A DNA stretch of 64,000 nucleotides from Colius striatus (lineage: Eukaryota > Chordata > Aves > Coliiformes > Coliidae): positions 50,290,152-50,354,151 of the forward strand of contig NC_084763.1 of NCBI RefSeq assembly GCF_028858725.1, written 5' to 3'. How positions within the stretch are numbered: position 1 is the first letter of the stretch; each line of letters starts with the position of its first letter. A program made the position numbers and the translations under genes. Below the pieces are notes generated by a model. It had not been told where the DNA came from. It saw only the letters and a program-made list of their open reading frames with translations, and did no database searches. Of this stretch, positions 4,392-53,895 are shown in pieces.

Positions 4392-7300
4392 CTATAGCCA
4401 GCTCCCATTTTCTGCACCCTCAACCACAGTGCTTTTGTTCTCAACGCTTCTATTTGCATCGCTCGTTTCCTCTAAAACCACTACTAAACTCGACAGAGTT
4501 GTGTGAGGATCAAGCAGTTTCAGAAGAGGTATGTCCACCTTTCTCTCTTGGAAGACACGGTTCTGAATTGTCATAGCTAACATAGAGTCTATGCCCAGCG
4601 ATGACAGCGGCGTATTCATCGTCAGCTCATCCGCGCTCTGGCCGGTGAGGTCACTCACCAGCGACGTGATGTAGTCTTCAGATTTGATTAAGGCACTATC
4701 CTGGCCTGGAGTTGACTCAGAGACTTCAAGCTTGTTCCTGAATTCTTCTGACATGAGGGAGATGAAGCGACTTTTGAGGGAAGTAATCCGAGAAAAGACG
4801 TGATGCAACAAAGCTTGAAAGTTCAGCTTGATGACGGCTTGCTGCGGGTTGTTCCGAAGCAAGCTCTTCCTGAGGTACTCGTGGATTTCATGCACCTGCA
4901 GAACCTCTATGCCCTTAAATCCCAGAATGTTCTGAATATGGCTTTGATTGAGCAGCACGCCGAGGTTCAAAGCACCCCAGTTAATGGACTGGCCTGAAAG
5001 CCCACAGTTCCTCCTGTAGAGGCAGAAGGCATCCAGGAAAGAGTTTGCAGCTGCGTAGTTTGCCTGGGTGGAATTCCCCAGAAAGGAAGTAACAGAGGAG
5101 TAGCACACAAAGTAGTCAAGCTGCTGGCCTCTGGTAGCCCAATGAAGATTTAGGGTCCCTGCTACCTTGGGGCTCAGCACTTTCTGAAAGTCAGCCAGGC
5201 TCAGGACTTCAAGGTGGCCGTCGTGTAAAACGACGGCGCTCTGAAATACACCTTTGATTGGAGTCCCGGCAAAGACGGTCGCGATGGACTGGAAAGCTTT
5301 CTCCACGGCGCTGCTCAAAGTCACATCACACTGCACAAACGCCACCTTGCAGCCTTTGTGCTGCTGCTGCAAAGCCTTCAGCTCTCCTTGCTTCTCGCTG
5401 CTTGGGTTGCTCCGGGAGAGTATTGCAATGCACCCTCCTCCATTCTCAGCTATGAATTTCACCGTTTCAAAGCCCAGCCCAGTGAGCCCCCCGACTACCA
5501 CGTAAACAGCGTGCTGCTTGAACAGCTGCTTCTGGGCTTCGTACAGCGGGATGTCTGACAGCACGGGGGTGTCCCTCTGCCTCCTCAGGACAGCAAGCGG
5601 GACAGACTGGCAGCTGAAATAGGACATCACACAGTTCATCCTTTCAAAGCTGCCCCTCTGCTGAAACACAGAACCTGGCAGCCGTCGAAATGGTTTCATA
5701 TCCATGGAACTGACCCACGCCTGCACGGCCTTTTGCAGTTGCTTCAGAGGGGCTTTCTGGAAAATGCTGGCAAGCGTAAGCACATGGAAGCTGATGTTTT
5801 CATGATCAATTCCACCAACAGCCTGCAGACACGTGGGCTGTTGATTGCCACACACTATCACCACATCTCGGAGAAAGTGCATGTGGGACAGATCCTCCGG
5901 AGACAGTCTGTTTACTGGGGGAAGAACCACAAGGGCATGGCACATGTTTATATACTGCAGCTTCTCTGGCGTGGGCCTGGCAAGCACTGTTCTCCAGCCC
6001 ATCTCTTCTGCTGCCACACAAAGGACGTGGCACAAAACTGACGACGGCTCTGTAGAAATGACACCCAGTGTTCTGCCACGTTTCCCCTTGGGTAACCGCT
6101 GAGTGAAGATCTCCCACGCCATGATAAAGTAGGACACACAAGGCACATTCTGAAAGCACGGGAACTTCTTTACCTTGAAACACACTGCTCCTGGAATCCA
6201 AACTCGGGATGATGCAGCAGCTGGGTAGCAGGAAGCCACGTGATCTCCCACTTGAAGCCTCTTCACGGCACTGCCTGTGGCTGTAACCGTGCCACTGAAA
6301 TCGAGAGCTAAAAGTCCGTGCTTGTCTACTACTTGTGAATTCCAATACAGTGTGTTCCCAAAGCTGCGACTAGAAACACTGATGGGAAAATAATCTTCTG
6401 AGTGGAGACATATTTTATCCACTTGAATTTCCACGCCGTGTGCGTCAAGCTGAGGAGCAGCGCTGGTGCACAATTCTGCAGACAAGTCTTTGGCTGTGTA
6501 CGGATCAGACGTGTACAAAGCGAAGGCTTCTGACTGCTGGGCAGCTCTTATGGCCTGGCCGTAGTCTGCATCGACAAAAGGTGTGCGGCAGACTTCAGCC
6601 ACGTAAGTTCTTCCTTGGCTGATGCAAAGCTCTGGGTAGTCCTCACCTTTGTATTTGACAAGAACGTCTGCCAGCACTGAGATGTCCAGCGAACTGCAAG
6701 AGCTCAGGTCAATTATCTGAAATGTGATTTCTGGAACCTCAAGGACACAAGTTCTGGTCATGCCATACAATGCAAAGCCACAGCTCACGTGGTCGACGTA
6801 CCTTTCTGATGTTCTGTAGGTGATCACTCGGACTGAGCAGTGGGACCTTTTCTCCCTCAGTGCCACAATAACTTGGCGATAGGCTTCACAACACTTTGCC
6901 AATTGGTCTACCCCTTGGCTTGGGACATCTTCGTTTAACTTTTGAATTCCCCACAGGAACAGAATTTCATCATAATCCTCAACCTCTGCTCTCATTTGCT
7001 TCACAGTGGGGCTTTCCAAGAGCCTTTCCCACTCTTCATACTTAACGTATCTCGAATCAGGATGCAAATACTTTTTCAGCCGCTCTGCTACCCCAAATTG
7101 GTCAGCAAACACCAGCACTCTGGGCATAGCCCCCACATGTCCAGTCGCCTGTGAAACACAGACTTCTTTCCACTTGCTCTCAAACATGAGCTCATTCTCT
7201 CGGGAAGACGCTTGCTTCATGAAAGTGATGGCCACGCGCTTCAGCTCAGCCAAAACAGTGCCACGCTTGTCCATGAAGCACCCACAGACCTCTAGGCAGT

Positions 7301-9950
7301 TTCCAAAGGCCTTGCTCGTTCTCATATAGATCATCATTTCTTCCTCCAGCGGTCGGAGCACCACCAGGCTGCCTATCCCTGAGGGAAAGCCCGCTCGGCA
7401 CTGGAGCGTCTTTGACGTCATGACAGCGGTCATCTGCAGAAAGCAGTCGAGCAGCACTGGGTGGATACAGTAGTTGTACATCTCTCGGGCGGTCTCCTTG
7501 TTCACCTTGATGCTTGTGATCGCTTCCTTTAGTTCCTGGCAATAATGCACATCGCTGAGCTGCCTGAAGACGGAGCTGTACTGGAAGCCAACCTGAGACA
7601 GCGCTTCATAAACCTCCTCTCTGCTAACCACCCCCCTGCATCTTTGAAAGATCTCTTGGAAGGAGATGGTGCTTTCTTCCACCACAGCCTCAGCCCCCTT
7701 GGTAACTTGGCCTGCGGCGTAAACTGCGTTGGAGGAAGAGAGGATCTCAAAGGCTGTCGCTGCTTTTTGCGCACTCAGCTTGATGCTCAAGACTTGGGAA
7801 CTCTGCGTGAGAACACACGGCGCAGAAAAACTGACACTCATCTGGCAAGTGCTCAGGGGCACTTTAGGACTGGAGCCACTCAGCACAGAGGCCAGACCAA
7901 GCTCCGCATACAAAGCACCAGGGACTAAAGCCACACCATTGTGCTTGTGCTCGTACAGGTACGATGTCGTGTCCTGGGACAGCAGGCAGCCAAACTCCGT
8001 GTTGTCGCTGCTTGTGCTGTAAAGCAAAAGGTGGCTGGAGCTGACGCCTCTTTGGTTTGCTTGCTGGTGGATATCCAGACAGGCCATCAGCTTCTTGCGG
8101 TCAAACTGATACCGAGGAATGGCCACGGGGATGCTCTGGTACCCATCATACAGGTGCTGCCAGCGCGGATTACATCCCAGTTCAAAGAGCTTTCCCACCA
8201 GGGTGAAGAGCGTCTGATACTCGGCATCAGTTTGCAAGGAAGAGAACACCTTGGTGCCTTTTCCAAGAGTCTCCTTGATGCTTCGCTGCAAAGCTCGCTG
8301 AGGACCTATTTCCACAAACACCACGTTTTCCCTGTCTCGAGCCACACTTTGGATGGCTTGAGTGAAAGCAACAGGCTCACGAGTGTGCCGGGCCCAGAAC
8401 TTGCCCTCAGCAAAGTCACTTCCCAAAGCAGCCGCCCCTGTCAGCGTTGACACCACTTCCATTTCCCCCTGCTGTTTTTCTAAAGGCCGGATGCTCTCTT
8501 CCAACTCCCCAAGTATTGTGTCCATGCTGGGGCTGTGGTACGCAGCTGGCACGCTCAAGACGTGAAGGAAGATGTCTCTCTGGCTGAAAGCTTGAGCTAA
8601 ATCTCTCTGCACAGCATCCACAGAGTCTACACTCCCAGACAAGGTGCAGGAAACGGGGCTGTTGAAGGCTGCGATGCACACCTGTCCCGCATAGGGATGC
8701 AGACGCTCAGCAACCTCTTGCACAGGGATGTTTCCGACCACCAGCATCCTGCCAGCAGCCGTCTTTGCCTGCAGACGGCTCCGGTGATAAATCACTTTGA
8801 CCGCATCTGCCAGGGACAGGTACCCAGCACAATGAGCTGCGGCAACTTCCCCCACCGAGTGGCCAACAGCAGCGACTGCCTCAATGCCCCAGTGTCTCAG
8901 CAGGGAAGCCAAGGCAACCTGCAGGGTAAAGAGCAAGGGCTGGGCGAGCTGCGGATTCAGCAAATCCTGGGGGCTGTGAGCTCTCGCTGGCAGGAGGCTG
9001 ATGGGAGCGTGCTTCTGAAAAAGCGCTTCTATTGCCTTACACTTGTCTCTGAACACGGGCTCTGAGCTCAGCAGGGCCTCGCTGAAGCCCCGCAGCGGCA
9101 CGCCGTTGCCACAGAACACAAACACCAGCTGCGGCTCCGCCTTTGACGTGGCCACGGTAGTGCTGGCTGCCGACAGAACCTCTCGCTGCAGGTGTTGGAG
9201 AGAATTGGTGACAAACGCCTTGCGGTACCGGTAGCTGGCGTGGCTTCTTCTGCAGGCAGATGTGTAGGCCAGGCTTGGGAGAGTCACCGAGTTCCTCGTG
9301 CTCAGCTCGGCAGCTGTGTCAGCCATGCTCAGCTGAAGGGACTTACTCGATGCTGCTGACAGCACAACTAATTCAAGAGGCCTCTTAAAGGCCGGAAGAG
9401 GCTCCAGCTGCTTCACCTGCCTGACTACCACATGAGCATTGGTTCCTCCAAAGCCAAAGCAGTTGATGCCAGCTACTCTTCCGTACTCGCGGGACTCTTC
9501 CCAGGGCTCTACGGCCGTGGGAATTGCAAGGTTCAGTTTCTCTGTGTCGATGCTGCTCGTCTCCCTCGAGTAGTGCAAGGATGGAACGATCTTTCCGTGG
9601 TGCATCATCAGAAGCACTTTGATTAACCCCGCTGCTCCAGCAGCTGATTCTGTGTGGCCAATGTTTCCTTTCACTGAACCCACTTTCAGAACAGAAACTT
9701 GGGAAGACCTGTTTTTACAAATGACACTCCCCAGGCTTTCAGCTTCCGTAGGGTCTCCAGCGGCAGTTCCTGTACCGTGGGCTTCAACGTACTGCACAGC
9801 TGACGGGTCGACATGCACCTCATAGACGCTGCGCAGTAGCTTCTCTTGCTCGATTCGAGATGGTCTTGTGATTGGAGTCATGGACCTGCCGTTCTGATTT
9901 ACTGCACTGATGTTTATGACACCCCAGATTTTGCTGTAGTCTTCCTTTGC
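4392..9950 (-). CDS. PKS: PKS A terminal coding exon 6 (rest of KS through ACP)
   Basis: One 5559-nt exon follows a CAACACAG acceptor, starting [10 protein letters not shown], and runs to a TAG at 4394-4392. It holds the KS histidines, all of AT, DH, the degenerate ER, KR and ACP. The length of this single exon is typical of animal PKS genes whose 3' part has lost introns. The antisense and alternate frames inside it are shadows. Confidence 0.96.
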   Translation of the reverse strand, partial: AKEDYSKIWGVINISAVNQNGRSMTPITRPSRIEQEKLLRSVYEVHVDPSAVQYVEAHGTGTAAGDPTEAESLGSVICKNRSSQVSVLKVGSVKGNIGHTESAAGAAGLIKVLLMMHHGKIVPSLHYSRETSSIDTEKLNLAIPTAVEPWEESREYGRVAGINCFGFGGTNAHVVVRQVKQLEPLPAFKRPLELVVLSAASSKSLQLSMADTAAELSTRNSVTLPSLAYTSACRRSHASYRYRKAFVTNSLQHLQREVLSAASTTVATSKAEPQLVFVFCGNGVPLRGFSEALLSSEPVFRDKCKAIEALFQKHAPISLLPARAHSPQDLLNPQLAQPLLFTLQVALASLLRHWGIEAVAAVGHSVGEVAAAHCAGYLSLADAVKVIYHRSRLQAKTAAGRMLVVGNIPVQEVAERLHPYAGQVCIAAFNSPVSCTLSGSVDSVDAVQRDLAQAFSQRDIFLHVLSVPAAYHSPSMDTILGELEESIRPLEKQQGEMEVVSTLTGAAALGSDFAEGKFWARHTREPVAFTQAIQSVARDRENVVFVEIGPQRALQRSIKETLGKGTKVFSSLQTDAEYQTLFTLVGKLFELGCNPRWQHLYDGYQSIPVAIPRYQFDRKKLMACLDIHQQANQRGVSSSHLLLYSTSSDNTEFGCLLSQDTTSYLYEHKHNGVALVPGALYAELGLASVLSGSSPKVPLSTCQMSVSFSAPCVLTQSSQVLSIKLSAQKAATAFEILSSSNAVYAAGQVTKGAEAVVEESTISFQEIFQRCRGVVSREEVYEALSQVGFQYSSVFRQLSDVHYCQELKEAITSIKVNKETAREMYNYCIHPVLLDCFLQMTAVMTSKTLQCRAGFPSGIGSLVVLRPLEEEMMIYMRTSKAFGNCLEVCGCFMDKRGTVLAELKRVAITFMKQASSRENELMFESKWKEVCVSQATGHVGAMPRVLVFADQFGVAERLKKYLHPDSRYVKYEEWERLLESPTVKQMRAEVEDYDEILFLWGIQKLNEDVPSQGVDQLAKCCEAYRQVIVALREKRSHCSVRVITYRTSERYVDHVSCGFALYGMTRTCVLEVPEITFQIIDLSSCSSLDISVLADVLVKYKGEDYPELCISQGRTYVAEVCRTPFVDADYGQAIRAAQQSEAFALYTSDPYTAKDLSAELCTSAAPQLDAHGVEIQVDKICLHSEDYFPISVSSRSFGNTLYWNSQVVDKHGLLALDFSGTVTATGSAVKRLQVGDHVASCYPAAASSRVWIPGAVCFKVKKFPCFQNVPCVSYFIMAWEIFTQRLPKGKRGRTLGVISTEPSSVLCHVLCVAAEEMGWRTVLARPTPEKLQYINMCHALVVLPPVNRLSPEDLSHMHFLRDVVIVCGNQQPTCLQAVGGIDHENISFHVLTLASIFQKAPLKQLQKAVQAWVSSMDMKPFRRLPGSVFQQRGSFERMNCVMSYFSCQSVPLAVLRRQRDTPVLSDIPLYEAQKQLFKQHAVYVVVGGLTGLGFETVKFIAENGGGCIAILSRSNPSSEKQGELKALQQQHKGCKVAFVQCDVTLSSAVEKAFQSIATVFAGTPIKGVFQSAVVLHDGHLEVLSLADFQKVLSPKVAGTLNLHWATRGQQLDYFVCYSSVTSFLGNSTQANYAAANSFLDAFCLYRRNCGLSGQSINWGALNLGVLLNQSHIQNILGFKGIEVLQVHEIHEYLRKSLLRNNPQQAVIKLNFQALLHHVFSRITSLKSRFISLMSEEFRNKLEVSESTPGQDSALIKSEDYITSLVSDLTGQSADELTMNTPLSSLGIDSMLAMTIQNRVFQERKVDIPLLKLLDPHTTLSSLVVVLEETSDANRSVENKSTVVEGAENGSWL

Positions 9951-12900
9951 CTGTGTTGTGAAAAAGAAACAGTATCTTTAATAATCTCACCTACAGGAGA
10001 AAACCAGACAACTCAACCAGGAACAGAGTATGCCATGAACTTCTAAATGCACCATCCCTTCCCCAAGGCAGGGGACGTGCACAAATGCACAATGCTCACC
10101 AAGTGCCTGCTTAATTTTAAGCTTGGATTGCTTAAGCTAGCAATCAAACTTTAGGCTGCTTCACAAGCAATCTTACCTTTTGCAGTGGCTTGAGGAAAAC
10201 AACACCACAGCCTTCTCCCCTTCCATAGCCATCGGCCTTTTTGGAGAAGGGTTTGCTGACTCCCTCTGGAGAGATCATTTTTGCTTTGCTGAGGGATACA
10301 AAGGTGCGGGGGTCTATTATGCAGTTCACTCCACCACAGATTGCTGCCTCACAGTCTCCTGCAGTAAGATAGAAACACACTCATGATGTTGGCATGTCCA
10401 GCATGAGAGCAGCCCTAGCCATCCTCATTCGTTTCGTTGCCCAGCATCCCAGCAGCCCTGTTACCTGATTTAATTGCTCGCAAGGCATAGTGCAGAGCAA
10501 AAAGAAAAGATGAACATGCAGTGTCAACAGCCAGTGATGGTCCAGTCAGATTAAAGGTGAATGACACCCTGTTAGCAGCAATGCTCATCGCTGTTCCCGT
10601 GCCGTCATAGTGATTTATTTCACTCACTGCTCTGCTTGTTACAATTTCATAGTCTCGATTCATGAGCCCTGTAAATATATCAAGTACATGTCACGTTAAC
10701 CTGAGCAAACAAGAAGGATCCTCAGCTCTAAAGCCGGCAGTGTGAGCTGCTTTTCTGTTTTAATAGTAAACTACACGGCATCAGTGCTCCTATGGCAAAA
10801 CTTACACAAACATCCCCAACACCTGAAACTTCTACCTGTAAGTGATGGGTCTTCCCTGATGGCTTAGCTCGTGGTGTGATGCATGGAAGTTCTGTGTAGC
10901 CTGCTTAGACCCTCTAATCTCAGTCTGAGAGTGGTTGCTTTGGTTTTGCCATGCAAATAGACATTAAGAAATTGCAATGAGAAGAGCAGGGATATAAATG
11001 TTCAGGACATTAGCTCTAGTTCCTTAGGTGTTCCAGTTGAAGGTCACAGCAGAAGCTAAAACCACTGCTTTTTATTTACCTTTAATTTGCTCAATTTAGT
11101 CAATAAGATGGAAATAGGGCCTGTGCAAGGAGTTGGAAAATGAAGCACCTCTATCTGGAGAGGAAGGAGTTGTCTCCTTTCTGAAAGAAGAGCTGTTCTC
11201 AGAGTAAAAGGTGATGTAAAGTTTCTGCCCCATAGGTACATCGGCCTAACTATTCCAGAAAACTCCTCTGAAAAGGGACAGAGATTACAGCTGTTACTCC
11301 AGCTCCTTGAGAAAATACAAGAGTTCACTTGGAAGGGATGTACAACAATCATCTAGTCCAACTGCCTGAACAAGTCAGTGCTCACCAAAGGTAAAGCGTG
11401 TTACTAAAGGTATTGTACAAATGCCTTTTACACACTGGCAGGCCTGGAGAAACCATCTCCTCTCTAGCAAACCTGTTTTAGTGCTTGACCACTCTCTCTG
11501 TAAATAAATGCTTCCTAACATCAAGTCTGAACCTCCTCTGATGCAGCTTTGAACCATTCCCACATGTCCTATCACAGGATATCAGGCAGAAGAGACCAGA
11601 ACCTCCTTCCCCTCTTCCCCTCCTCAGGAAGCTGTAGAGAGCAAAGTTTGCATCCGAGTCTCCTTTTCTCCTAACTCCCAGCCTGAGCCCTCAGCTGCTC
11701 CTCATGGGTCATGCCTTCCAGCCCTTTCACCAGCTTTGTTGCCCTCCTCTGGATGCCTCCATTCTGTATCGTGGGTCCCAGAACTGTACACAGTTCTCAA
11801 GGCGAGGCTGCACCAATGCTAAATACAACAGGATAATCCCTGCTTTTGACCAGCTGCTTATACTGAAGTTCTCTGTCCCTCTTGAGCTGAGGACACAGGA
11901 CTCCAAATGAGGCCTCACCAGGGCAGAGTAGAGAGGGAGCAGAACCTCCCTCGACCTGCTGCCCACACTTTTCTTGATGCATCCCAGGATGCCATTGGCC
12001 TTCTTGGCCATGAGGGCACATTGCTGCCTCATGGTTAGTTTATTATCAAGCAGGACTCACAGGTCTCTCTGCAGAGCTGCTCTCCAGCAGGTCACCTTTA
12101 GCCTGTACTGGTGCATGGGGTTGTTCCTTCCCAGATGCAGGACCTTAAGCCCCACAACACCTTAACCAATGTTATACTGGAAAACAGTGTAGGCCTGGCT
12201 TGAGTATCATTTCTAAGAAGGGCTGGGTTGACGAGGCAGTTTAACAGTTTCCTGCTTCAACTTCAGTACCAAAAGACACCAAGGGAGCCCCCTAAAATAC
12301 GGATGTGAATTACATACAACAAACCTCCAGAGTAGCCTAGCAATCCTTACCAAAAATAACTGGCACACAACAGTAGCCTTAGATCTCCAGTGCTAGATAC
12401 ACAGGTAAAGCTTATGAGGGAGTGCTCCAAGCTTTGTGAGATTCAAATGTACTTTCTTTGCCATGTTATTTTTGTCTTACCAATAAAAACCCCTGTTTTG
12501 GTGCCACTGACAGCTTCTACGGGGACTCCAGCATCCTCCAGGGCTTTGTACGTGCACTCTATCAATAACTTCTGCTGCGGATCCATGCGTTCAGCTTCCA
12601 TATTATTGATCCCAAACAGGTGGTTGTCAAATGAATTAAATCTAAAAGACACAGGTACAAGATACAGACAACATGTATTTACTCCTACACTCAGAGTTAA
12701 CACACATTTTTTGCAATTTGATGAAAAGCAAAGTAGTAACTTTAGGCCACAGCTCCCATTTATGAAATTCAGAAACAAATATTCATAGGTCATAATACTC
12801 AAATGAAACACAAGGTCTCCTTCTTTACTATCTAGCAAAACTGCACTACCTTACTTTGTCTGTAAATTATCACAACTGAACTAGAATTACTTTTCCACAT

Positions 12901-14153
12901 AAGCAAGGAATTAGGTCCCAAGATCCAACAAAGCTGGCTAACCTTCAGGCTGAAGCTGGAGGAATTTTAAATGTGGCTTGCACCTTCTGAAAGGCTGGAC
13001 ATGTCTGGCTAAGTATGAAAAAAAATTAGTGTCACCACATGGTAACAGACTCACTCATCGAGAAGAGCAGCTCGTGTTGTACATATCTTTCCTGGCTTGT
13101 TATCATCTGGATCATACCAATCTTTGGCATTAAATCTCTCAGGGGGAATTTCTACTGTGCAGTTTTTGCCTTCCTCCAGGACCTTCCAGAAGTTGTCAAT
13201 TCCATCACCTGTTGTACAGAGGTTTTAAAGTCGATTAAATCATGTGCTCCCCCTCCCCACACCAACTCAGAAATGCTCTCAGTTACAGAGAACTCCCACG
13301 TAGACATTTTGAGTGCTCAAGAAGCATCACCAGAGAAAGAAATGATCATGTTTTGGTGAGAGGAAAAAGGAAAGGCATGAATGATCCTTTCACTGCCTGC
13401 CTTAGAGCAGTAGAAGTCACAAAATGCTTAATCTTCTGCTGTCCCTGTTTCCCTAAGATTGTAAATGTGAGAGTACTGTAATACAGGCTGCTGTCACAAT
13501 ATATGATAGGCAATATCAGTTCTTTACCACAGTTAGCCTCTCATCTTGTACAAGGGGCTATATTTAGGTCTGTGTTTGTGAGAGGCAAAACCTGACTACA
13601 GACAGCTGTATTTATCTAGCTCTGCTCTCTTCTGGGACCTTTCCAAGTGAGTACTGTAATAAAGCAGAAAGATTCCTGTTAGCAAGACCCAAGCTATTTC
13701 TATTAGGGGCAGGGCTGGTGATACTGACAGGCCCTCCATCTGTCCTGTCCCTATGGGTACACAGTCCTGCAGCGATGCACCGTCACCCAGCCAGTGCATT
13801 CAGAGAGCTCAAACCCTCCCAGACCCACCCACTTCACTTGTGTGAGGTTCATGTCTGCAGCTCAATGCCCTGCCTACAGACAGCACTGCAGGTCTGTCTC
13901 TCAGGGGACAAATTGCAATCAAGGGATTTCCACCACAGAGGGTCCTTTTAAAAAGATCCTTCAAGTAGCAAAGCCATGAATTGTACAGAAGTAAGGGAGG
14001 AATGTGTTGTTTTGCTCCACTTCAACATTAATCAGTGACTCTGCTTTTCTGTGTTCACTCAGCAGCCCACCCTGCTTTTACCCAAAACTTACCTCCAGGG
14101 AAATTGCATCCTATCCCCACAATTGCAATTTCATCTCCAGTCTCCATCTTCAT
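4392..14153 (-). CDS. PKS: Animal polyketide synthase, copy A (six coding exons, 2106 aa)
   Basis: Iterative type I PKS, expected to act in the cytosol and build a polyketide from malonyl-CoA units. Coding exons are 14093-14153, 13055-13208, 12481-12641, 10465-10668, 10177-10358 and 4392-9950; they sum to 6321 nt and join in frame through GT/AG sites. KS spans about residues 7-430 with Cys177 (DTACSS), His312 (EAHGTGT) and His353 (GNIGHTES). AT has Ser619 (GHSVG), Arg644 (YHRSRL) and His726. DH has His922 in an HxxxGxxxxP motif and Asp1089. An ER-like region (about 1420-1690) lacks the GGVG nucleotide motif. KR has GGLTGLG at 1741-1747 with Lys1849, Ser1873 and Tyr1886. ACP Ser2043 lies in GIDSM. 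No thioesterase follows. The start is the ATG at 14153, just before the KS motif IAIVGIG. By family it resembles budgerigar MuPKS and fish/sea-urchin PKS. Copy B is about 99% identical. Confidence 0.93.
10177..10358 (-). CDS. PKS: PKS A coding exon 5
   Basis: The 182-nt exon lies between a CTGCAG acceptor and a GTAAGA donor. It encodes the KS core from DCEAAICGG through [10 protein letters not shown] to FLKPLQK and ends in phase 0. It is protein-identical to copy B. Confidence 0.93.
10465..10668 (-). CDS. PKS: PKS A coding exon 4 (KS active-site cysteine)
   Basis: The 204-nt exon lies between a TTTACAG acceptor and a GTAACA donor. It carries the KS nucleophile in [12 protein letters not shown] (Cys177) and is protein-identical to the copy B exon. 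Confidence 0.93.
11300..12148 (-). repeat. CR1 LINE in PKS A intron 3
   Basis: An antisense CR1 3' half with the familiar blocks (CACCAGCTTTGTTGCCCTCC, CAGAACTGTACACAGTTCTC). Copy B has a different CR1 in the opposite orientation in this intron. Confidence 0.88.
12481..12641 (-). CDS. PKS: PKS A coding exon 3
   Basis: The 161-nt exon follows a CTTTTAG acceptor and ends at a GTAAGA donor. It encodes the KS region containing the DPQQKLLIE motif and ends at VFIG. Phase 2 in, phase 1 out. Residue 86 is Met here and Thr in copy B. Confidence 0.92.
13055..13208 (-). CDS. PKS: PKS A coding exon 2
   Basis: This 154-nt exon begins after CAG at 13211-13209 and ends at a GTGAGT donor. It encodes the N-terminal KS segment from DGIDNFW to AALLDE and takes codon phase 1 in, phase 2 out. 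It differs from copy B at K49R, P54Q and D71N. Confidence 0.9.
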
Positions 14154-14161
14154 CTCCAGGG
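14093..14161 (-). CDS. PKS: PKS A exon with start codon (coding 14093-14153)
   Basis: The ATG at 14153 opens a 20-codon segment ending in GCNFPG plus one base, followed by a GTAAGT donor at 14092-14091. A pyrimidine-poor but acceptable CAG acceptor at 14164-14162 suggests the exon begins at 14161 with eight untranslated bases. A second in-frame ATG lies two codons downstream at 14147. Confidence 0.85.
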
Positions 14162-15115
14162 CTGTGCAATACAGGTCTAAGTGTCAGTTAGCTCAAACAA
14201 TTGTGCCTTTAGAATTAAGTAAATTTCAAATTAAAAGGTGAACTTTCCACAAACACATGCACTTGTTCATAGCTTCATTGATTTGTTTTCCACTGTGATG
14301 AGAAATGCCACTCCCTACAGGTGACCAGAGCTGTGTGATGTTTTCCTTGTTGTCTCTGCTTTCAGAGGAATATCTCTAATCCTCAGACTCCCCTGTTCAC
14401 AGACACTTCCTTTTACTATTAACCTCTGCTACTCCTGACACCGGCTGATCTGCACCCAAGCCTCTCCCAGATCGGTCCTGCTTTGCTCCTTACAGACAGA
14501 AGTCACTTGCACATTGACCAGAGCATATTCTCAGCTCTGTCATCTCTACCCTATTCACAAAGCAGGTCTCCCAAACAGACACTGCTTTGGTAGATCCCAG
14601 GCTGCTGAGCCTTACTCTAAATCAGCTTCGTCTGCAGTCCGAGTTTAACCCCCACTGACCATACTCTGAGCCAACAATTCTCAGAGGTTTTGCTTTGAAA
14701 CATGACATTTAAAACAACTGCTCAGATTCACACTTTGAAAAATCTGCTTCATGGTCCCATTAACTAAGACAGAGAAAGGTAAAGGGCTACTAAGCAAAAC
14801 CAGAGACCAGCATCTGGCTTTCTAGAAGTACCTTCTGTTTCACCAATAATACTAATTCCAAAATGCTATAAAAAGAATTTCCTTTTAGATCTTTCAAAGC
14901 TGACTATGACTTCTGTGGTGTCTCTAGTTCATAGTTTAACTTCACTGCTAACCTTAAGCAGCAAAGCCCAACATAGATACTCTTGTCACAAGATCCTTTT
15001 AAGCATTGCTCCTCAGTTAGCACTTAAATAGCATATCATAGAAAAATAAGGACCTTCTGATTCTAACATGTCTTTGGCATCTATAGAATTACCCAGTGAG
15101 CTATGAAACTCTTAC

Positions 15116-15143
15116 CTTATATCATCCCAGTAGGGTGCACTAA
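15116..15143 (-). other. PKS: Probable 5' non-coding exon of PKS A
   Basis: A strong donor (AAG|GTAAGAG) has its GT at 15115-15114. It lies about 50 nt downstream of a TATA box, so a short untranslated exon of roughly 28 nt would splice to 14161. The transcription start near 15143 is inferred from the usual TATA spacing only. The arrangement is preserved in copy B. Confidence 0.55.
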
Positions 15144-15165
15144 TAGGCTGAGGCTGTGGAAGCTG

Positions 15166-15173
15166 TTTATATA
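15166..15173 (-). promoter_or_regulatory. PKS: TATA box of PKS A
   Basis: TATATAAA on the minus strand, in the context CCTATATAAACAG, is conserved in copy B. It sits upstream of the predicted non-coding exon and about 1 kb upstream of the start codon. Confidence 0.6.
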
Positions 15174-15252
15174 GGATCCTGTGAGGTTTCTCATTTAATA
15201 CTTATGCTAAACTGGGATGGAAATGTTAACGCCTTTCAAAGGAAAGAAAGCA

Positions 15253-15265: not shown

Positions 15266-15275
15266 TTACTCAATG

Positions 15276-24084: not shown

Positions 24085-29608
<5,524 letters not shown>

Positions 29609-45100: not shown

Positions 45101-47721
45101 ATCATCATTTCTTCCTCCAGCGGTCGGAGCACCACCAGGCTGCCTATCCCTGAGGGAAAGCCCGCTCGGCACTGGAGCGTCTTTGACGTCATGACAGCGG
45201 TCATCTGCAGAAAGCAGTCGAGCAGCACTGGGTGGATACAGTAGTTGTACATCTCTCGGGCGGTCTCCTTGTTCACCTTGATGCTTGTGATCGCTTCCTT
45301 TAGTTCCTGGCAATAATGCACATCGCTGAGCTGCCTGAAGACGGAGCCGTACTGGAAGCCAACCTGAGACAGCGCTTCATAAACCTCCTCTCTGCTAACC
45401 ACCCCCCTGCATCTTTGAAAGATCTCTTGGAAGGAGATGGTGCTTTCTTCCACCACAGCCTCAGCCCCCTTGGTAACTTGGCCTGCGGCGTAAACTGCGT
45501 TGGAGGAAGAGAGGATCTCAAAGGCTGTCGCTGCTTTTTGCGCACTCAGCTTGATGCTCAAGACTTGGGAACTCTGCGTGAGAACACACGGCGCAGAAAA
45601 ACTGACACTCATCTGGCAAGTGCTCAGGGGCACTTTAGGACTGGAGCCGCTCAGCACAGAGGCCAGACCAAGCTCCGCATACAAAGTACCAGGGACTAAA
45701 GCCACACCATTGTGCTTGTGCTCGTACAGGTACGATGTTGTGTCCTGGGACAGCAGGCAGCCAAACTCCGTGTTGTCGCTGCTCGTGCTGTAAAGCAAAA
45801 GGTGGCTGGAGCTGACGCCTCTTTGGTTTGCTTGCTGGTGGATATCCAGACAGGCCATCAGCTTCTTGCGGTCAAACTGATACCGAGGAATGGCCACAGG
45901 GATGCTCTGGTACCCATCATACAGGTGCTGCCAGCGCGGATTACATCCCAGTTCAAAGAGCTTTCCCACCAGGGTGAAGAGCGTCTGATACTCGGCATCA
46001 GTTTGCAAGGAAGAGAACACCTTGGTGCCTTTTCCAAGAGTCTCCTTGATGCTTCGCTGCAAAGCTCGCTGAGGACCTATTTCCACAAACACCACGTTTT
46101 CCCTGTCTCGAGCCACACTTTGGATGGCTTGAGTGAAAGCAACAGGCTCACGAGTGTGCCGTGCCCAGAACTTGCCCTCAGCAAAGTCACTTCCCAAAGC
46201 AGCCGCCCCTGTCAGCGTTGACACCACTTCCATTTCCCCCTGCTGTTTTTCTAAAGGCCGGATGCTCTCTTCCAACTCCCCAAGTATCGTGTCCATGCTG
46301 GGGCTGTGGTACGCAGCTGGCACGCTCAAGACGTGAAGGAAGATGTCTCTCTGGCTGAAAGCTTGAGCTAAATCTCTCCGCACAGCATCCACAGAGTCTG
46401 CACTCCCAGACAAGGTGCAGGAAACGGGGCTGTTGAAGGCTGCGATGCACACCTGTCCCGCATACGGATGCAGACGCTCAGCAACCTCTTGCACAGGGAT
46501 GTTTCCGACCACCAGCATCCTGCCAGCAGCCGTCTTTGCCTGCAGACGGCTCCGGTGATAAATCACTTTGACCGCATCTGCCAGGGACAGGTACCCAGCA
46601 CAATGAGCTGCGGCAACTTCCCCCACCGAGTGGCCAACAGCAGCGACTGCCTCAATGCCCCAGTGTCTCAGCAGGGAAGCCAAGGCAACCTGCAGGGTAA
46701 AGAGCAAGGGCTGGGCGAGCTGCGGATTCAGCAAATCCTGGGGGCTGTGAGCTCTCGCTGGCAGGAGGCTGATGGGAGCATGCTTCTGAAAAAGCGCTTC
46801 TATTGCCTTACACTTGTCTCTGAACACGGGCTCTGAGCTCAGCAGGGCCTCGCTGAAGCCCCGCAGCGGCACGCCGTTGCCACAGAACACAAACACCAGC
46901 TGCGGCTCCGCCTTTGACGTGGCCACGGTAGTGCTGGCTGCCGACAGAACCTCTCGCTGCAGGTGTTGGAGAGAATTGGTGACAAACGCCTTGCGGTACC
47001 GGTAGCTGGCGTGGCTTCTTCTGCAGGCCGATGTGTAGGCCAGGCTTGGGAGAGTCACCGAGTTCCCCGTGCTCAGCTCGGCAGCTGTGTCAGCCATGCT
47101 CAGCTGAAGGGACTTACTCGATGCTGCTGACAGCACAACTAATTCAAGAGGCCTCTTAAAGGCCGGAAGAGGCTCCAGCTGCTTCACCTGCCTGACTACC
47201 ACGTGAGCATTGGTTCCTCCAAAGCCAAAGCAGTTGATGCCAGCTACTCTTCCGTACTCGCGGGACTCTTCCCAGGGCTCTACGGCCGTGGGAATTGCAA
47301 GGTTCAGTTTCTCTGTGTCGATGCTGCTCGTCTCCCTCGAGTAGTGCAAGGATGGAACGATCTTTCCGTGGTGCATCATCAGAAGCACTTTGATTAACCC
47401 CGCTGCTCCAGCAGCTGATTCTGTGTGGCCAATGTTTCCTTTCACTGAACCCACTTTCAGAATGGAAACTTGGGAAGACCTGTTTTTACAAATGACACTA
47501 CCCAGGCTTTCAGCTTCCGTAGGGTCTCCAGCGGCAGTTCCTGTACCGTGGGCTTCAACGTACTGCACAGCTGACGGGTCGACATGCACCTCATAGACGC
47601 TGCGCAGTAGCTTCTCTTGCTCGATTCGAGATGGTCTTGTGATCGGAGTCATGGACCTGCCGTTCTGATTTACTGCACTGATGTTTATGACACCCCAGAT
47701 TTTGCTGTAGTCTTCCTTTGC
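42163..47721 (-). CDS. PKS: PKS B terminal coding exon 6
   Basis: This 5559-nt exon is co-linear with 4392-9950 at a constant offset of 37771, without a single indel. It has 17 amino-acid differences that I could list against copy A. It ends at a TAG at 42165-42163. Confidence 0.96.
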   Translation of the reverse strand, partial: AKEDYSKIWGVINISAVNQNGRSMTPITRPSRIEQEKLLRSVYEVHVDPSAVQYVEAHGTGTAAGDPTEAESLGSVICKNRSSQVSILKVGSVKGNIGHTESAAGAAGLIKVLLMMHHGKIVPSLHYSRETSSIDTEKLNLAIPTAVEPWEESREYGRVAGINCFGFGGTNAHVVVRQVKQLEPLPAFKRPLELVVLSAASSKSLQLSMADTAAELSTGNSVTLPSLAYTSACRRSHASYRYRKAFVTNSLQHLQREVLSAASTTVATSKAEPQLVFVFCGNGVPLRGFSEALLSSEPVFRDKCKAIEALFQKHAPISLLPARAHSPQDLLNPQLAQPLLFTLQVALASLLRHWGIEAVAAVGHSVGEVAAAHCAGYLSLADAVKVIYHRSRLQAKTAAGRMLVVGNIPVQEVAERLHPYAGQVCIAAFNSPVSCTLSGSADSVDAVRRDLAQAFSQRDIFLHVLSVPAAYHSPSMDTILGELEESIRPLEKQQGEMEVVSTLTGAAALGSDFAEGKFWARHTREPVAFTQAIQSVARDRENVVFVEIGPQRALQRSIKETLGKGTKVFSSLQTDAEYQTLFTLVGKLFELGCNPRWQHLYDGYQSIPVAIPRYQFDRKKLMACLDIHQQANQRGVSSSHLLLYSTSSDNTEFGCLLSQDTTSYLYEHKHNGVALVPGTLYAELGLASVLSGSSPKVPLSTCQMSVSFSAPCVLTQSSQVLSIKLSAQKAATAFEILSSSNAVYAAGQVTKGAEAVVEESTISFQEIFQRCRGVVSREEVYEALSQVGFQYGSVFRQLSDVHYCQELKEAITSIKVNKETAREMYNYCIHPVLLDCFLQMTAVMTSKTLQCRAGFPSGIGSLVVLRPLEEEMMIYMRTSKAFGNCLEVCGCFMDKRGTVLAELKRVAITFMKQASSRENELMFESKWKEVCVSQATGHVGAMPRVLVFADQFGVAERLKKYLHPDSRYVKYEEWERLLESPTVKQMRAEVEDYDEILFLWGIQKLNEDVPSQGVDQLAKCCEAYRQVIVALREKRSHCSVRVITYRTSERYVDHVSCGFALYGMTRTCVLEVPEITFQIIDLSSCSSLDISVLADVLVKYKGEDYPELCISQGRTYVAEVCRTPFVDAEYGQAVRAAQQSEAFALYTSDPYTAKDLSAELCSSTAPQLDAHGVEIQVDKICLHSEDYFPISVSSRSFGNTLYWNSQVVDKHGLLALDFSGTVTATGSAVKRLQVGDHVASCYPAAASSRVWIPGAVCFKVKKFPCFQNVPCVSYFIMAWEIFTQRLPKGKRGRTLGVISTEPSSVLCHVLCVAAEEMGWRTVLARPTPEKLQYINMCHALVVLPPVNRLSPEDLSHMHFLRDVVIVCGNRQPTCLQAVGGIDHENISFHVLTLASIFQKAPLKQLQKAVQAWVSSMDMKPFRRLPGSVFQQRGSFERMNCVLSYFSCQSVPLAVLRRQRDTPVLSDIPLYEAQKQLFKQHAVYVVVGGLTGLGFETVKFIAENGGGCIAILSRSNPSSEKQGELKALQQQHKGCKVAFVQCDVTLSSAVEKAFQSIATVFAGTPVKGVFQSAVVLHDGHLEVLTLADFQKVLSPKVAGTLNLHWATRGQQLDYFVCYSSVTSFLGNSTQANYAAANSFLDAFCLYRRNCGLSGQSINWGALNLGVLLNQSHIQNILGFKGIEVLQVHEIHEYLRKSLLRNNPQQAVIKLNFQALLHHVFSRITSLKSRFISLMSEEFRNKLEVSESAPGQDSALIKSEDYITSLVSDLTGQSADELTMNTPLSLLGVDSMLAMTIQNRVFQERKVDIPLLKLLDPHTTLSSLVVVLEETSDANRSVENKSTVVEGAENGSWL

Positions 47722-50700
47722 CTGTGTTGTGAAAAAGAAACAGTATCTTTAATAATATCACCTACAGGAGAAAACAAGACAACTCAACCAGGAACAGAGT
47801 ATGCCATGAACTTCTAAATGCACCATCCCTTCCCCAAGGCAGGGGACGTGCACAAATGCACAATGCTCACCAAGTGCCTGCTTAATTTTAAGCTTGGATT
47901 GCTTAAGCTAGCAATCAAACTTTAGGCTGCTTCACAAGCAATCTTACCTTTTGCAGTGGCTTGAGGAAAACAACACCACAGCCTTCTCCCCTTCCATAGC
48001 CATCGGCCTTTTTGGAGAAGGGTTTGCTGACTCCCTCTGGAGAGATCATTTTTGCTTTGCTGAGGGATACAAAGGTGCGGGGGTCTATTATGCAGTTCAC
48101 TCCACCACAGATTGCTGCCTCACAGTCTCCTGCAGTAAGACAGAAACATACTCATGTTGGTATGTCCAGCATGAGAGCAGCCCTAGCCATCTTCATTCGT
48201 TTCGTTGCCCAGCATCCCAGCAGCCCTGTTACCTGATTTAATTGCTCGCAAGGCGTAGTGCAGAGCAAAAAGAAAAGATGAACATGCAGTGTCAACAGCC
48301 AGTGATGGTCCAGTCAGATTAAAGGTGAATGACACCCTGTTAGCAGCAATGCTCATCGCTGTTCCCGTGCCGTCATAGTGATTTATTTCACTCACTGCTC
48401 TGCTTGTTACAATTTCATAGTCTCGATTCATGAGCCCTGTAAATATATCAAGTACATGTCGCGTTAACCTGAGCAAACAAGAAGGATCCTCAGCTCTAAA
48501 GCCGGCAGTGTGAGCTACTTTTCTGTTTTAATAGTAAACTACACGGCATCAGTGCTCCTATGGCAAAACTTACACAAACATCCCCAACACCTGAAACTTC
48601 TACCTGCACAGTAAATGATGGGTCTTCCCTGATGGTTTAGCTCGTGGTGTGATGCACGGAAGTTCTGTGTAGCCTGCTTAGACCCTCTAATCTCAGTCTG
48701 AGAGTGGTTGCTTTGGTTTTGCCATGCAAATAGATATTAAGAAATTACAATGAGAAAAGCAGGGATATAAATGTTCAGGACATTAGCTCCAGTTCCTTAG
48801 GTATTCTCTATCATTTTTTAACAATCTTAGAGCACAGATGAGGTGCCTGAGGACTGGAGAAAGGGCAATGTCACTCCAGTCCTCAAAAAAGGCAAGAAGG
48901 ATGATCAAGGAAAACACAGGCCAATCAGCCTCACCTCCATCCCTAGAAAGGTGATGGAACAGCTCATCCTGGATGCCATTTCTAAGCATACAAAGGAAAA
49001 GATGGTTATCAAGGGGAGTCAACATGGATTCACCAAGGGGAAATCCTGCTTGACCAACCTGATAGCCTTCTATGAGAGTATAACTAGCTGGCAGATGAGG
49101 GGAAAGCAGTGAATGCCATTTACCTTGACTTCAGCAAGGCTTTTGACACCCATATATCCAAGTAGGAAGGCTCAGGCAATATGTGTTGGATGAGTGGACG
49201 GTGAGGTAGATCAAGAACTGGCTGAATGATAGAGCCCAGAGGGTGGTGATCAACAGCATCGAGTCGAGTTGGAGGCCTGTGGCCAGTGGAGTTCCACAAG
49301 AGTTGGTCCTGGGGCTACTAAAAAATCTTCATCAACGACCTGGATGAGGGGACAGAGTCACCCTCAACAAGTTCGCTGATGACACTAAACTGAGAGGACT
49401 GGCTGATTCACCAGAGTCTGTGCTGCCATTCAGTGGGGTCTTGACTGGTTTGAGAGTTGGGCAGGTACCAATGTTATCAGTTGGACGAGTGCACCTTGGT
49501 AGCCTACTAATATCTACATGAGGATCTCTGCTGATTCCAAAGGTCCTTAAGCCCCACAACGCTTTAACCAATGTTTTACTGGAAAACAGTGTAGGCCTCG
49601 CTTGAGAGTATCTTTCCTAAGAAGGGCTGGGTTGACGAGGCAGTTTAACAGTTTCCTGCTTCAACTTCAGTACCAAAAGACACCAAGGGAGCCCCCTAAA
49701 ATACGGATGTGAATTACATACAACAAACCTCCAGAGTAGCCTAGCAATCCTTACCAAAAATAACTGGCACACAACAGTAGCCTTAGATCTCCAGTGCTAG
49801 ATACACAGGTAAAGCTTATGAGGGAGTGCTCCAAGCTTTGTGAGATTCAAATGTACTTTCTTTGCCATGTTATTTTTGTCTTACCAATAAAAACCCCTGT
49901 TTTGGTGCCACTGACAGCTTCTACGGGGACTCCAGCATCCTCCAGGGCTTTGTACGTGCACTCTATCAATAACTTCTGCTGCGGATCCATGCGTTCAGCT
50001 TCTGTATTATTGATCCCAAACAGGTGGTTGTCAAATGAATTAAATCTAAAAGACACACGTACAAGATACAGACAACATGCATTTACTTCTACACTCAGAG
50101 TTAACACACATTTTTTGCAATTTCATGAAAAGCAAAGTAGTAACTTTAGGCCACAGCTCCCATTTATGAAATTCAGAAGAACATGGAACATTACAGTTGA
50201 AAAAGACCTTTAAGATCATCAAGTCCAAGCACTAACCTCACACTGCCAGACCCATCACTAAACTAAATCATATCCCTCAGCACCTCAGCTATGCGTCTTT
50301 TGAATATCTCTAGGGATGGTGACTCCACCACCACCCTGGGCAGCCTGTTGCAATGCTTAATAACCCTTTCAGTGAAAAAGTTCTTCCTAAAGTCCAAGCT
50401 AAACCTCCCCTGGCACAACTTGAACTCATTTCCTCCTGTGTGCCCTGTCATTCATTACTGGAGAGATCAACTCCCACCTCACTACAACTCGTCTTCAGGT
50501 AGTTGTGTCTCCTCTCAGCCTCCTCTTCTCTAGGCTAAACATCGCCAGCTCCCTCAGATGCTTCTCATAAAGGCCTGTTCTCCAGACCCTTCACCAGCTT
50601 TGTTGCCTGTCTCTGGATTCACGCCAGCACCTCAATGTCTTTCTTGTAGTGAAGGGCCCAGAACTGAACACAGTATTCTAGGTGCAGCCCCACTGGTGCT

Positions 50701-53700
50701 GAGTAGAAGGGGACAATCACTTCCCTGGTCCTGCTGATCACAATATTTCTGATACAAGCCAGGATGCCATTGGCATGCTTGGCCACCTGGGCACACTGCT
50801 GGCTCATGTTCAGCTGGCTGCTGATTAACACCTCCAGGTCCTTTTCTGCTGGACAGCTTTCCAGCCACTCTGTATAAAGCCTGTAGCATTGCCTGGGTCT
50901 GTTGTGATACAAGTGCAGGACCTGATGCTTGGCCTTGTTGAACCTCGTGTAATTGTCTCAGCCCATTGTTCCAGCCTGTCCAGGGCCCTCTGAAGTGCCT
51001 TCCTGCACTCAAGGAAATCTACATACCAGCACAGCTTCAAGTCATCTGCAAAATTCCTAAGGTTGCACTCAATTCCCTAATCCACATCATTGATAAAGAT
51101 GTTAAACAGGATAGGCCCCAGCACCAAGTCCTGGGGAACACCACTGGTGACCAGCCATCAGCTGGATTTAACTCCATTCACTGTGACTCTCTGGGCTTGT
51201 CATCCAGTCAGTTTTCGACCCATCTCAGAGCAGGCCCATCCAAGCCACAGCCAGTTAGTTTCTCCAGCAGGATGCTGTGGGAGAATGTGTCAAAGACCTT
51301 ACTGAAGCCTTCACCTCATCCACTAAGCGGGTCATCTTGTCATAGAAAGACATCAGGTTGGTCAAACAGGACTTGCCCTTCATAAAGCCATACTGACTGA
51401 AGAAAATGTTTCTAGTCCACACTACTCAAATGAAGCACAAGATCTCCTTCTTTACTATCTAGCAAAAGCAGACTTCTTTACTTTGTCTCTACATTGTCTC
51501 ACCTGCAACTGAATTACTTCTCCCCAGAAGCACAAGATTCGGTCTTGAGGTCCAGCAAAGCTGGCCAACCTTCAGGCTGAAGCTGGAGGAATTTTAAATG
51601 TGGCTTGCACCCCCTGAAAGGCTGGACATGTTTGGCTAAATACCAAAAATAAAAAAGTGCCCACACACGGTAACAGACTCACTCATTAAGAAGAGCAGCT
51701 CGTGTTGTACATATCTTTCCTGGCTTGTTATCATCTTGATCATACCAATCTCTGGCATTAAATCTCTCAGGGGGAATTTCTACTGTGCAGTTTTTGCCTT
51801 CCTCCAGGACCTTCCAGAAGTTGTCAATTCCATCACCTGTTGTACAGAGGTTTTAAAGTCGATTAAATCATGTGCTCCCCCTCCCCACACCGACTCAGAA
51901 ATGCTCTCAGTTACAGAGAATTCCCACATAGACATCTCGAGTGCTCAAGTAGCATCACCAGAGAAAGAAATGATCATGTTTTGGTGAGAGGAAAAAGGAA
52001 AGGCATGAATGATCCTTTCACTGCTTGCCTCAGAGCAGTAAAAGCCACAAAAATCCTTGATCTTTTGTTGTTCCCATTTCCCTACCATGTTACTGCTTTT
52101 ATGACATATACACATCATGTCTTTAATGACTACACAGGTACGATGAATTTTTTCTGTATCTGTACAGCACCACTCCTCAGGCAGCGACACCAGTAGCAAA
52201 AGTTAATCTCTGAACATTAACTTGTTGGAGACAGAGCGAGTTTACAAATACCAGGAAAATGCCATGGGCATCCTTTCTCCCTAACACTAGAAGGGCATCT
52301 AAATGGAACAGAAAAGGATATTCAGTGCTGAGAGAGCCTAACATCTCACTAGTGGATTATGGGGGACGCTGTCCTTACTGGTTGAGATCCAGAGCTCCAG
52401 CTCCACACACTGAGGATATGTCTATACCTTCTTGTTCTTAGCCCAGAAACCAACTAACATGGCGACCACACAGTAGTGCACATTTCTTCTCCTCCCACCT
52501 TCCACTTTCCCTAAGGCACACAGTGGCTGCACCCACACTCACTCCAGACATAGTCTCTTGCAGGTGCTACCCTGTAGCATGCCCAAGCACTGACTGGGAG
52601 TGCTCCACGGGCCCAGGCCAGCGCTGGGCCAGGGCCCGAGCAAGCAGTCAGTAACAGCGATCGTGGGACAGTGCTCCCACTGACACCCTCTCATCATCAC
52701 AGACACAACATCTCCAAAGAGATTCCCTTCATTGGCATGTTTGGACCAACAAATGGCTTGCACCAAATTAGTACTTAATGCTCAGGCAAGAGACTGCTGC
52801 TACGTATTTACTGTCAGTTTACTAGATTCAGAAGCATCTAGGTTTGCTCACAGTTAGCTATGGACACACACTTCTCTCTGTACAACATGTACCTACTGAA
52901 TCTTGGACATACTGAAGCCAGGAACTGAAATATGCTGAGGGCAAGAAAGAAAACAAGGAAAGAGAGAGACTAGTATGGTCACCTCTAGGGCTTAATGTCA
53001 ACTTGCAAGGACAGAATTGTATTCTGCTCCATGGATTACTTCAGGACTATTTAAACCTGTATCTAATCTAAAGAGTATGGACAGTATCAAAGCAGCACTC
53101 AGAACTTGGAAATCTCTCACTGCTACCTAAACATCTCCAGCCATCTAATCTTAGTCAGACATCTCAGAATATAATGTCAACTGTCACTTTCATAGGGCCC
53201 AAGTGTAACCGAGACTGTAAATTTGACACTACTGTAATACAGGCTCTGTAGGAAATATCGGTTCTTTACTCAAGTCAGCCTCCCATCTTGTACAAGGGGC
53301 TATATTTAGGTCTATGTTTGTGAGAGGCAGAACCTGACTACAGACAGCTGTATTTATCTAGCTCTGCTCTCTTCTGGGACCTTTCCAAGTGAGTACTGTA
53401 ATAAAGCAGAAAGATTCCTGTTAGCAAGACCCAAGCTATTTCTATTAGGGGCAGGGCTGGTGATACTGACAGGCCCTCCATCTGTCCTGTCCCTACGGGT
53501 ACACAGTCCTGCAGCAATGCACCGTCACCCAGCCAGTGCATTCAGAGAGCTCAAACCCTCCCAGACCCACCCACTTCACTGGTGTGAGGTTCATGTCTGC
53601 AGCTCAATGCCCTGCCTACAGACAGCACTGCAGGTCTGTCTCTCAGGGGACAAATTGCAATCAAGGGGTTTCCACCACAGAGGGTCCTTTTAAAAAGATC

Positions 53701-53895
53701 CTTCAAGTAGCAAAGCCATGAATTGTACAGAAGTAAGGGAGGAATGTATTGTTTTGCTCCACCTCAACATTAATCAGTGACTCTGCTTTTGTGTGTTCAC
53801 TCAGCAGCCCACCCTGCTTTTACCCAAAACTTACCTCCAGGGAAATTGCATCCTATCCCCACAATTGCAATTTCATCTCCAGTCTCCATCTTCAT
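42163..53895 (-). CDS. PKS: Animal polyketide synthase, copy B (six coding exons, 2106 aa)
   Basis: Tandem paralogue of copy A with the same exon sizes and phases: 53835-53895, 51683-51836, 49885-50045, 48233-48436, 47948-48129 and 42163-47721, again 6321 nt with one stop. All catalytic residues listed for copy A are kept: Cys177, His312, His353, Ser619, Arg644, His726, His922, Asp1089, Lys1849, Ser1873, Tyr1886 and Ser2043. The ER-like region is equally degenerate. About 21 residues differ from copy A, including A933T next to the DH motif and S2038L and I2041V next to the ACP serine (GVDSM here). Nothing suggests that either copy is broken. Introns 2 and 3 and the region upstream carry CR1 and other insertions that copy A lacks, so the genomic span is about 2 kb longer. 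Confidence 0.93.
47948..48129 (-). CDS. PKS: PKS B coding exon 5
   Basis: The 182-nt exon, protein-identical to copy A, ends at a GTAAGA donor in phase 0. Confidence 0.93.
48233..48436 (-). CDS. PKS: PKS B coding exon 4 (KS active-site cysteine)
   Basis: The 204-nt exon encodes VDTACSS with Cys177. It is protein-identical to the copy A exon, with only silent changes. Confidence 0.93.
48840..49500 (+). repeat. CR1 LINE reverse-transcriptase fragment in PKS B intron 3
   Basis: The sense strand encodes RT blocks ([23 protein letters not shown], then [10 protein letters not shown] in another frame). It is absent from the same intron of PKS A. Confidence 0.93.
49885..50045 (-). CDS. PKS: PKS B coding exon 3
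   Basis: The 161-nt KS exon with DPQQKLLIE has the same acceptor and donor as copy A. Residue 86 is Thr. Confidence 0.92.
50183..51410 (-). repeat. CR1 LINE in PKS B intron 2
   Basis: About 1.2 kb of antisense CR1 from the 3' end into RT sequence. PKS A has no CR1 at the equivalent point (near 12780-12800), so this insertion distinguishes the paralogues. Confidence 0.92.
51683..51836 (-). CDS. PKS: PKS B coding exon 2
   Basis: The 154-nt exon has splice sites identical to those of copy A. Relative to copy A it carries Arg49, Gln54 and Asn71. Confidence 0.9.
52080..53220. other. Insertion specific to PKS B intron 1 region
   Basis: About 1.1 kb between exon 2 and the start exon has no counterpart in PKS A, where matching flanks are joined near 13440-13500. 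No named repeat or exon was seen in it. Either an insertion here or a deletion in A would explain it. Confidence 0.6.

Follow-up and report, generated by a model that had tools for sequence, protein, structure and literature searches.

The genome of the speckled mousebird, Colius striatus, carries two intact, near-identical polyketide synthase (PKS) genes in tandem, and the duplicated segment is a two-gene unit, PKS(-)/PTCHD3(+). The initial annotation of the window, i. e. of the whole stretch of 64,000 nucleotides that was analyzed, had missed the second gene of this unit. The PKS pair is real, and the event that gave rise to it, a tandem duplication, is of an ordinary kind and has already been reported for other birds. 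With a probability of roughly two thirds, we regard the duplication as old and the copies as having been homogenized later by gene conversion.

Structure of the tandem units

Both PKS genes were rebuilt from the sequence; they are complete, are located on the minus strand, and have their stop codons 37.8 kb apart. Copy 1 (LOC133625531; 4392..14153) consists of the six exons 14153-14093, 13208-13055, 12641-12481, 10668-10465, 10358-10177, and 9950-4392; copy 2 (42163..53895) consists of the exons 53895-53835, 51836-51683, 50045-49885, 48436-48233, 48129-47948, and 47721-42163. The exon lengths are common to both copies (61, 154, 161, 204, 182, and 5559 nucleotides), all five introns of each gene have GT-AG borders, and both reading frames encode 2106 residues without any internal stop. 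The coding sequences differ at 47 of 6321 nucleotides (0.7%), the proteins at 21 of 2106 residues, which corresponds to 99.0% identity. The copy 1 product matches the public protein P0001, which is annotated as uncharacterized protein LOC133625531 of Colius striatus, in every residue. Rebuilding the genes reproduced everything that had initially been claimed about the tandem pair with respect to intactness, exon number, length, and the approximate number of 21 amino acid differences.

PTCHD3 copy A (24085..29608, plus strand) comprises four coding exons (24085-24807, 25034-25155, 26228-26373, and 28005-29608) for 864 residues; its spliced product is identical to the public protein P0121. An intact copy B was found in fetched flanking sequence past the end of the window, at 65531-71076 in window coordinates. 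The two PTCHD3 genes differ at 4 of 864 residues and at 14 of 2595 bases (dS 0.016, dN 0.002). Based on same-order matches, unit 1, in which PKS(-) and PTCHD3(+) are arranged head to head, occupies 3729..30003, and unit 2, which contains PTCHD3 copy B, occupies 41396..64000 and runs past the window to 71475. Collinear matches tie 3729-30003 to 41396-71475 (17 of 26, for rows of at least 100 bases and offsets of 30-48 kb). For the intergenic part at 17.6-20.5 kb more than one pairing is possible, and the stretches 18130-19158 and 19795-20461 have their partners in swapped order. A repeat-like family was observed in the intergenic stretches 17605-20461, 59778-61653, and 62681-63994; its pairs are 69-96% identical and occur in shuffled order.

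The units are separated by a spacer of 11.4 kb (30004-41395). It contains a decayed PTCHD3 remnant (38307..39419, plus strand), which gave short matches of about 24-64% identity with stop codons inside, hinting at an older PTCHD3 copy. We also considered that the unit might extend into the spacer but rejected this, as the matches there are scattered and mostly repeat-like or out of order.

Domain composition of the PKS proteins

For the copy 1 protein (P0001), Pfam detected, in this order, KS, AT, DH, a trace of ER below the threshold, KR, and ACP. Exon 6 of both copies contains the same Pfam domains, except that a weak ACP model (PF23297) passes for copy 1 only. A thioesterase was found by Pfam neither in the copy 1 protein nor in exon 6 of either copy. 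Both copies possess the motifs for the KS cysteine and its two histidines, the AT serine and histidine, the DH histidine and aspartate, KR, and the ACP serine, which are the meanings we take these motifs to have. For these domains, the initial annotation was right in stating that all catalytic residues are kept; the statement needs correction for the ER, as one narrow pattern, applied without an alignment, found the NADPH glycine motif in neither copy. The same pattern had no hit among the 63 listed proteins longer than 2000 residues, copy 1 included. The only Pfam signal in the ER region is an ADH_N trace of 20.2 bits versus a cut-off of 23.5 bits. Because the glycine motif was not found and the trace is below the cut-off, the ER looks inactive in the mousebird proteins. 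An inactive ER has been described for some members of this PKS group (PMC6334511).

The domain order KS-AT-DH-ER-KR-ACP without a thioesterase is that of the animal (vertebrate) iterative type I PKSs of the MuPKS/ApPKS group. Within avian PKSs, the mousebird protein is 79-85% identical to the listed full-length avian proteins P0002-P0038, and it is located inside the birds in a tree of 39 chosen rows. What would mark an animal fatty acid synthase, namely a C-terminal thioesterase and closest similarity to this enzyme, was not found. Among solved structures, the best match was a putative polyketide synthase (654 bits), compared to 568 bits for mycocerosic acid synthase and 408 bits for the best fatty acid synthase.

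Copy number in the genome

The number of PKS loci was determined by a six-frame search of the species' own genome (1.21 Gb) with exon 6 of copy 1 as query, and all 13 first-look candidates were scored. Seven matches resulted: the two window copies, four matches on contig C1, and one on C7, the contig on which the window spans 50290152-50354151. In this search, the two window copies are the only full-length open PKS loci. The four C1 matches lie at two places, near 165.25 and 165.27 Mb, and the two longer ones contain 5 and 6 stop codons. These broken exon-6 fragments (165248000-165257000 and 165260000-165269000) cover about residues 678-1019; over their main part, the DNA is about 92% identical to both window copies, and the two long stretches that carry them are 99.4-99.7% identical to each other. 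The remaining match, on C7 at 17.9 Mb with 35% identity, is perhaps a fatty acid synthase.

Mosaic divergence between the copies

In order to compare the units, 13 blocks were characterized by their K80 distance and by a Fisher test (raw p-values) against the synonymous differences of the exons (26, that is 47 minus 21, of 1465 sites). Eight blocks do not differ from the exon synonymous rate and five do, with raw p-values between 4.7e-5 and 3.7e-37. Divergence is low in most parts. The dS value is 1.8% for PKS and 1.6% for PTCHD3; among the PKS introns, divergence is 2.7% in 1a, 3.0% in 2b, 2.1-2.7% in the aligned parts of intron 3 (K80 0.021 and 0.028), 3.9% in intron 4, and 0.9% in intron 5 (K80 0.009). 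The PTCHD3 introns are 0.9-2.5% diverged, the 5' side of this gene 1.4% and its 3' side 2.1%. The values for the intergenic stretches 21392-22369 and 19795-20461 are 3.6% and 4.2%, and those upstream of PKS 2.3% and 4.9%.

Much higher values were found at three places. Intron 1b is 6.9% diverged (K80 0.074, raw Fisher p = 3.7e-5). Intron 2a (12796..13054, minus strand, 259 bases; counterpart 51423-51682 in copy 2) is 16.6% diverged (K80 0.19, raw Fisher p = 3.5e-20), with 43 substitutions and one gap column. The 3' flank of PKS copy 1 (3729..4295, minus strand) is 22-29% diverged (21.5% and 29.0%) from the flank of copy 2 at 41396-41938, with K80 values of 0.25 and 0.37 and raw Fisher p-values of 2.5e-33 and 3.7e-37. 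The first 67 bases past the PKS stop codon show 0% divergence and are followed by an abrupt fall to about three quarters identity, from where the flanks stay collinear except for a 128-base stretch in copy 2; 516 bases could be aligned.

The two intronic islands are close to sequences that only copy 2 contains. Intron 1b abuts a stretch of 1127 bases in intron 1 (52085..53211), and intron 2a sits 18 bases from a stretch of 1223 bases in intron 2 (50182..51404), which has relatives among the other repeats of the window and is presumably CR1-like. The islands are one-sided: on the opposite side of each copy-2-only stretch, in introns 1a and 2b, divergence is just 2.7-3.0%. The middle of intron 3 (11034-12138 versus 48807-49540) gave no match and was left out of the block comparison; a forced alignment of the whole intron is 31% different. 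The region 17605-18317 (24-26% diverged) was considered as a further island and dropped, as it also matches 62681-63163 and behaves as a repeat. In summary, homogenized tracts with sharp edges lie beside strongly diverged homologous flanks, and no third match to the 3' flank was found within 134 kb.

Duplication history

Because the homogenized tracts end sharply beside old homologous flanks, we read this mosaic as the outcome of gene conversion; both the age of the duplication and the cause of the homogenization are inferred from the sequence. A segment of about 26-30 kb with the divergently oriented PKS and PTCHD3 genes would have given rise to a second, head-to-tail copy in the ancestry of this mousebird. 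Gene conversion, i. e. non-reciprocal exchange between the copies, would then have homogenized both genes and most of the aligned introns to about 1-4%, and the islands that escaped would be the PKS 3' flank and, adjacent to the copy-specific stretches, parts of introns 1 and 2.

A comparison with other birds gives some idea of the timing. In a quick tree of 39 chosen rows, the two Colius PKS proteins group and Urocolius is outside (SH-aLRT 99). The Urocolius protein, which is partial and stems from a 6589-base contig, differs from copy 1 at 67 and from copy 2 at 65 of 1341 residues, i. e. by about 5%; between Strix and Colius, about 15% of the exon-6 residues differ. If a dN/dS value of about 0.25 is assumed, the synonymous distance would be, as a rough scale, about 0.09 to Urocolius and about 0.26 to Strix. 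The last homogenization probably occurred after the Colius-Urocolius split, and the age of the 3' flank (K80 0.25-0.37) may be close to that of the split between mousebirds and the other Neoaves.

Several observations count against an old duplication. Among the aligned noncoding blocks, the majority differ by only 1-5%, and a fairly recent duplication explains most of these; the gap count of intron 2a is low for old neutral DNA, and each island is found on one side only. The argument for an old event is based on the 516 aligned bases of the 3' flank and the 259 bases of intron 2. It is conceivable, if on the whole doubtful, that a single tandem duplication took place recently, after the Colius-Urocolius split and with a neutral divergence of about 2%, that no gene conversion occurred, and that the diverged stretches are repeats, products of local hypermutation, or replaced segments. 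Such a history would agree with the low divergence of genic and intergenic blocks alike, with the few gaps and the one-sidedness of the islands, and with the fact that the Colius PKS copies are each other's closest relatives in the 39-row tree. It is difficult to reconcile with the 3' flank, which directly follows both genes with conserved order and orientation, is free of a third match over the distance given above, and adjoins a 100% identical stretch despite its divergence of 22-29%; moreover, the rates of the blocks differ strongly.

The 99% identity of the coding regions could also suggest an assembly artefact, in which two haplotypes of a single-copy locus were set in tandem. We consider this highly improbable: the window is a single gapless 64-kb sequence with copy-specific stretches of 1.1-1.2 kb, the 3' flanks are 22-29% diverged and some intron and flank stretches 7-29% different, and the units enclose the 11.4-kb spacer with its decayed PTCHD3 remnant and contain PTCHD3 genes that differ at 14 of 2595 bases. 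The reading as alleles or as a false duplication was rejected on the differences in introns, insertions, and flanks, and the initial view of the copies as two genes was supported. An old tandem duplication followed by gene conversion is the history we prefer.

Possible functional consequences of the gene pair

For the PKS pair, dN/dS is 0.25 according to NG86 (0.0044/0.0176) and 0.40 according to YN00 (0.0051/0.0128); per site, nonsynonymous changes are rarer than synonymous ones (Fisher p = 1.8e-6). Judged by their sequences, both enzymes look functional. Both are predicted to be iterative enzymes (KS-AT-DH-KR-ACP, without a working ER and without a thioesterase), and by analogy to the product of budgerigar MuPKS, each would make an unsaturated polyene acyl chain, which would be released by another protein.

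The initial annotation had suggested that two functional-looking copies would allow dosage or specialization in polyketide pigment or other roles. The functional-looking tandem pair was retained; specialization found little support. The effect of the pair is most likely one of dosage, because the proteins and the proximal upstream DNA are near-identical; a further reason to favor dosage over specialization is that the enzymes both look functional, with a dN/dS of 0.25-0.40. That the copies serve different tissues or make different products, due to coding or distal regulatory changes, would be compatible with either duplication history; we consider it improbable. It would fit the observations that, relative to 38 avian rows, copy 2 is the one with the rarer residue at 14 of the 21 differing sites (copy 1 at 6, 1 tied), that the most unusual difference, S2038L in copy 2, is placed beside the ACP serine motif at a position where serine occurs in all avian rows that have a residue there (37 of 37), and that close upstream homology stops near 15.4 kb and 55.2 kb, respectively. 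Speaking against specialization are the dN/dS value of 0.25 (NG86) or 0.40 (YN00), the region upstream of the start, in which the 428 aligned bases differ by only 2.3%, and the fact that none of the tested motifs has been lost in either copy. At 8 of the differing sites, Urocolius possesses one of the two residues, namely that of copy 2 at 5 sites and that of copy 1 at 3. At 2 sites, which belong to the 14 of copy 2, Urocolius contradicts the call based on the avian majority and has the copy 2 residue.

In birds with such a homogenized pair, two genes may be taken for a single one in short-read copy counts, in the assignment of RNA-seq reads, and in knock-outs, and selection may act on dosage. 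The copies can be told from each other by their 3' flanks, which are distinct (3729-4295 versus 41396-41938), and by the 47 differences in the coding sequence; with the help of these markers, dosage versus specialization becomes directly testable.

Comparison with known PKS systems

The initial statement that avian PKS work concerns single named genes has to be corrected, as pairs in chicken and quail had already been reported (PMC6334511) and Sylvia atricapilla shows a pair, too: two partial PKS proteins of this species (P0087/P0089) are 99.4% identical over 1321 residues and have contigs of equal listed length. As to PTCHD3, two PTCHD3-like proteins each, again with contigs of equal listed length, were observed in the pigeon Caloenas (P0149/P0150, 96% identical) and in the cuckoo Cuculus (P0159/P0210, 92% identical); in a tree of 35 chosen rows, the pairs of Caloenas, Cuculus, and Colius each group within species. 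Such within-species PTCHD3 and PKS pairs can result either from repeated recent duplications or from one old duplication under concerted evolution. As a speculation, which we think is rather unlikely to hold, the PKS-PTCHD3 unit might be an ancient and widespread avian tandem array with concerted evolution of both genes; the pairs of chicken, quail, blackcap, pigeon, and cuckoo would then be the same old duplication, re-homogenized, and many bird PKS genes regarded as "single-copy" would stem from collapsed assemblies.

In squamates (gecko, lizard), the matches listed include several PKS proteins of one species with contigs of equal listed length, which resembles the situation in the mousebird. 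However, among 37 chosen rows, PKS copies from a single squamate species are diverged and in many cases belong to different clades, whereas the mousebird copies are near-identical. Old diverged PKS paralogues of the squamate kind were not found in birds among the rows of the trees (39 and 37, chosen from 120 listed of 7351 matches plus copy 2). Animals usually have one to three pks genes, and the chicken PKS is listed as LOC420486 (PMC4604110). Among the titles listed in our search of the open-licence literature, none dealt with a mousebird PKS, with the duplication of avian PKS genes, or with gene conversion between such genes.

According to PMC10764717, only one vertebrate PKS, that of the budgerigar, had been characterized. 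Avian PKSs are probably iterative, and the products of MuPKS are highly unsaturated C14-C18 acyl precursors, which has been linked to the inactive ER (PMC6334511). MuPKS and the mousebird copies have in common the avian PKS group and an ER that is inactive or, in the mousebird, looks inactive, and the locus may be the same (PMC6334511, PMC8616904); a redpoll PKS has been placed on chromosome 2, with RAB18 and YME1L1 as its neighbors, and its homology with the budgerigar gene has been suggested (PMC8616904). The expression of the budgerigar gene in yeast is also mentioned there. For MuPKS the polyene product has been shown, whereas for the mousebird copies it is predicted by analogy. The mallard ApPKS is, like the mousebird enzymes, a homologous avian PKS without thioesterase or methyltransferase; it is described as the unique PKS of its genome, in contrast to the two of the mousebird (PMC6334511).

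The closest parallel is found in Gallus gallus and Coturnix. Avian PKS homologues are mostly single genes, but these two species have two pks copies each, with proteins that are 98% identical (PMC6334511); as in the mousebird, there are two copies per genome with near-identical proteins, and synteny is stated to be kept. Section 5 of that account describes no unit structure, PTCHD3 duplication, or pattern of divergence, whereas the mousebird unit was compared block by block. What the present analysis adds is the unit of two genes, together with evidence for gene conversion; on this basis, it would become testable whether birds have one PKS gene or two.
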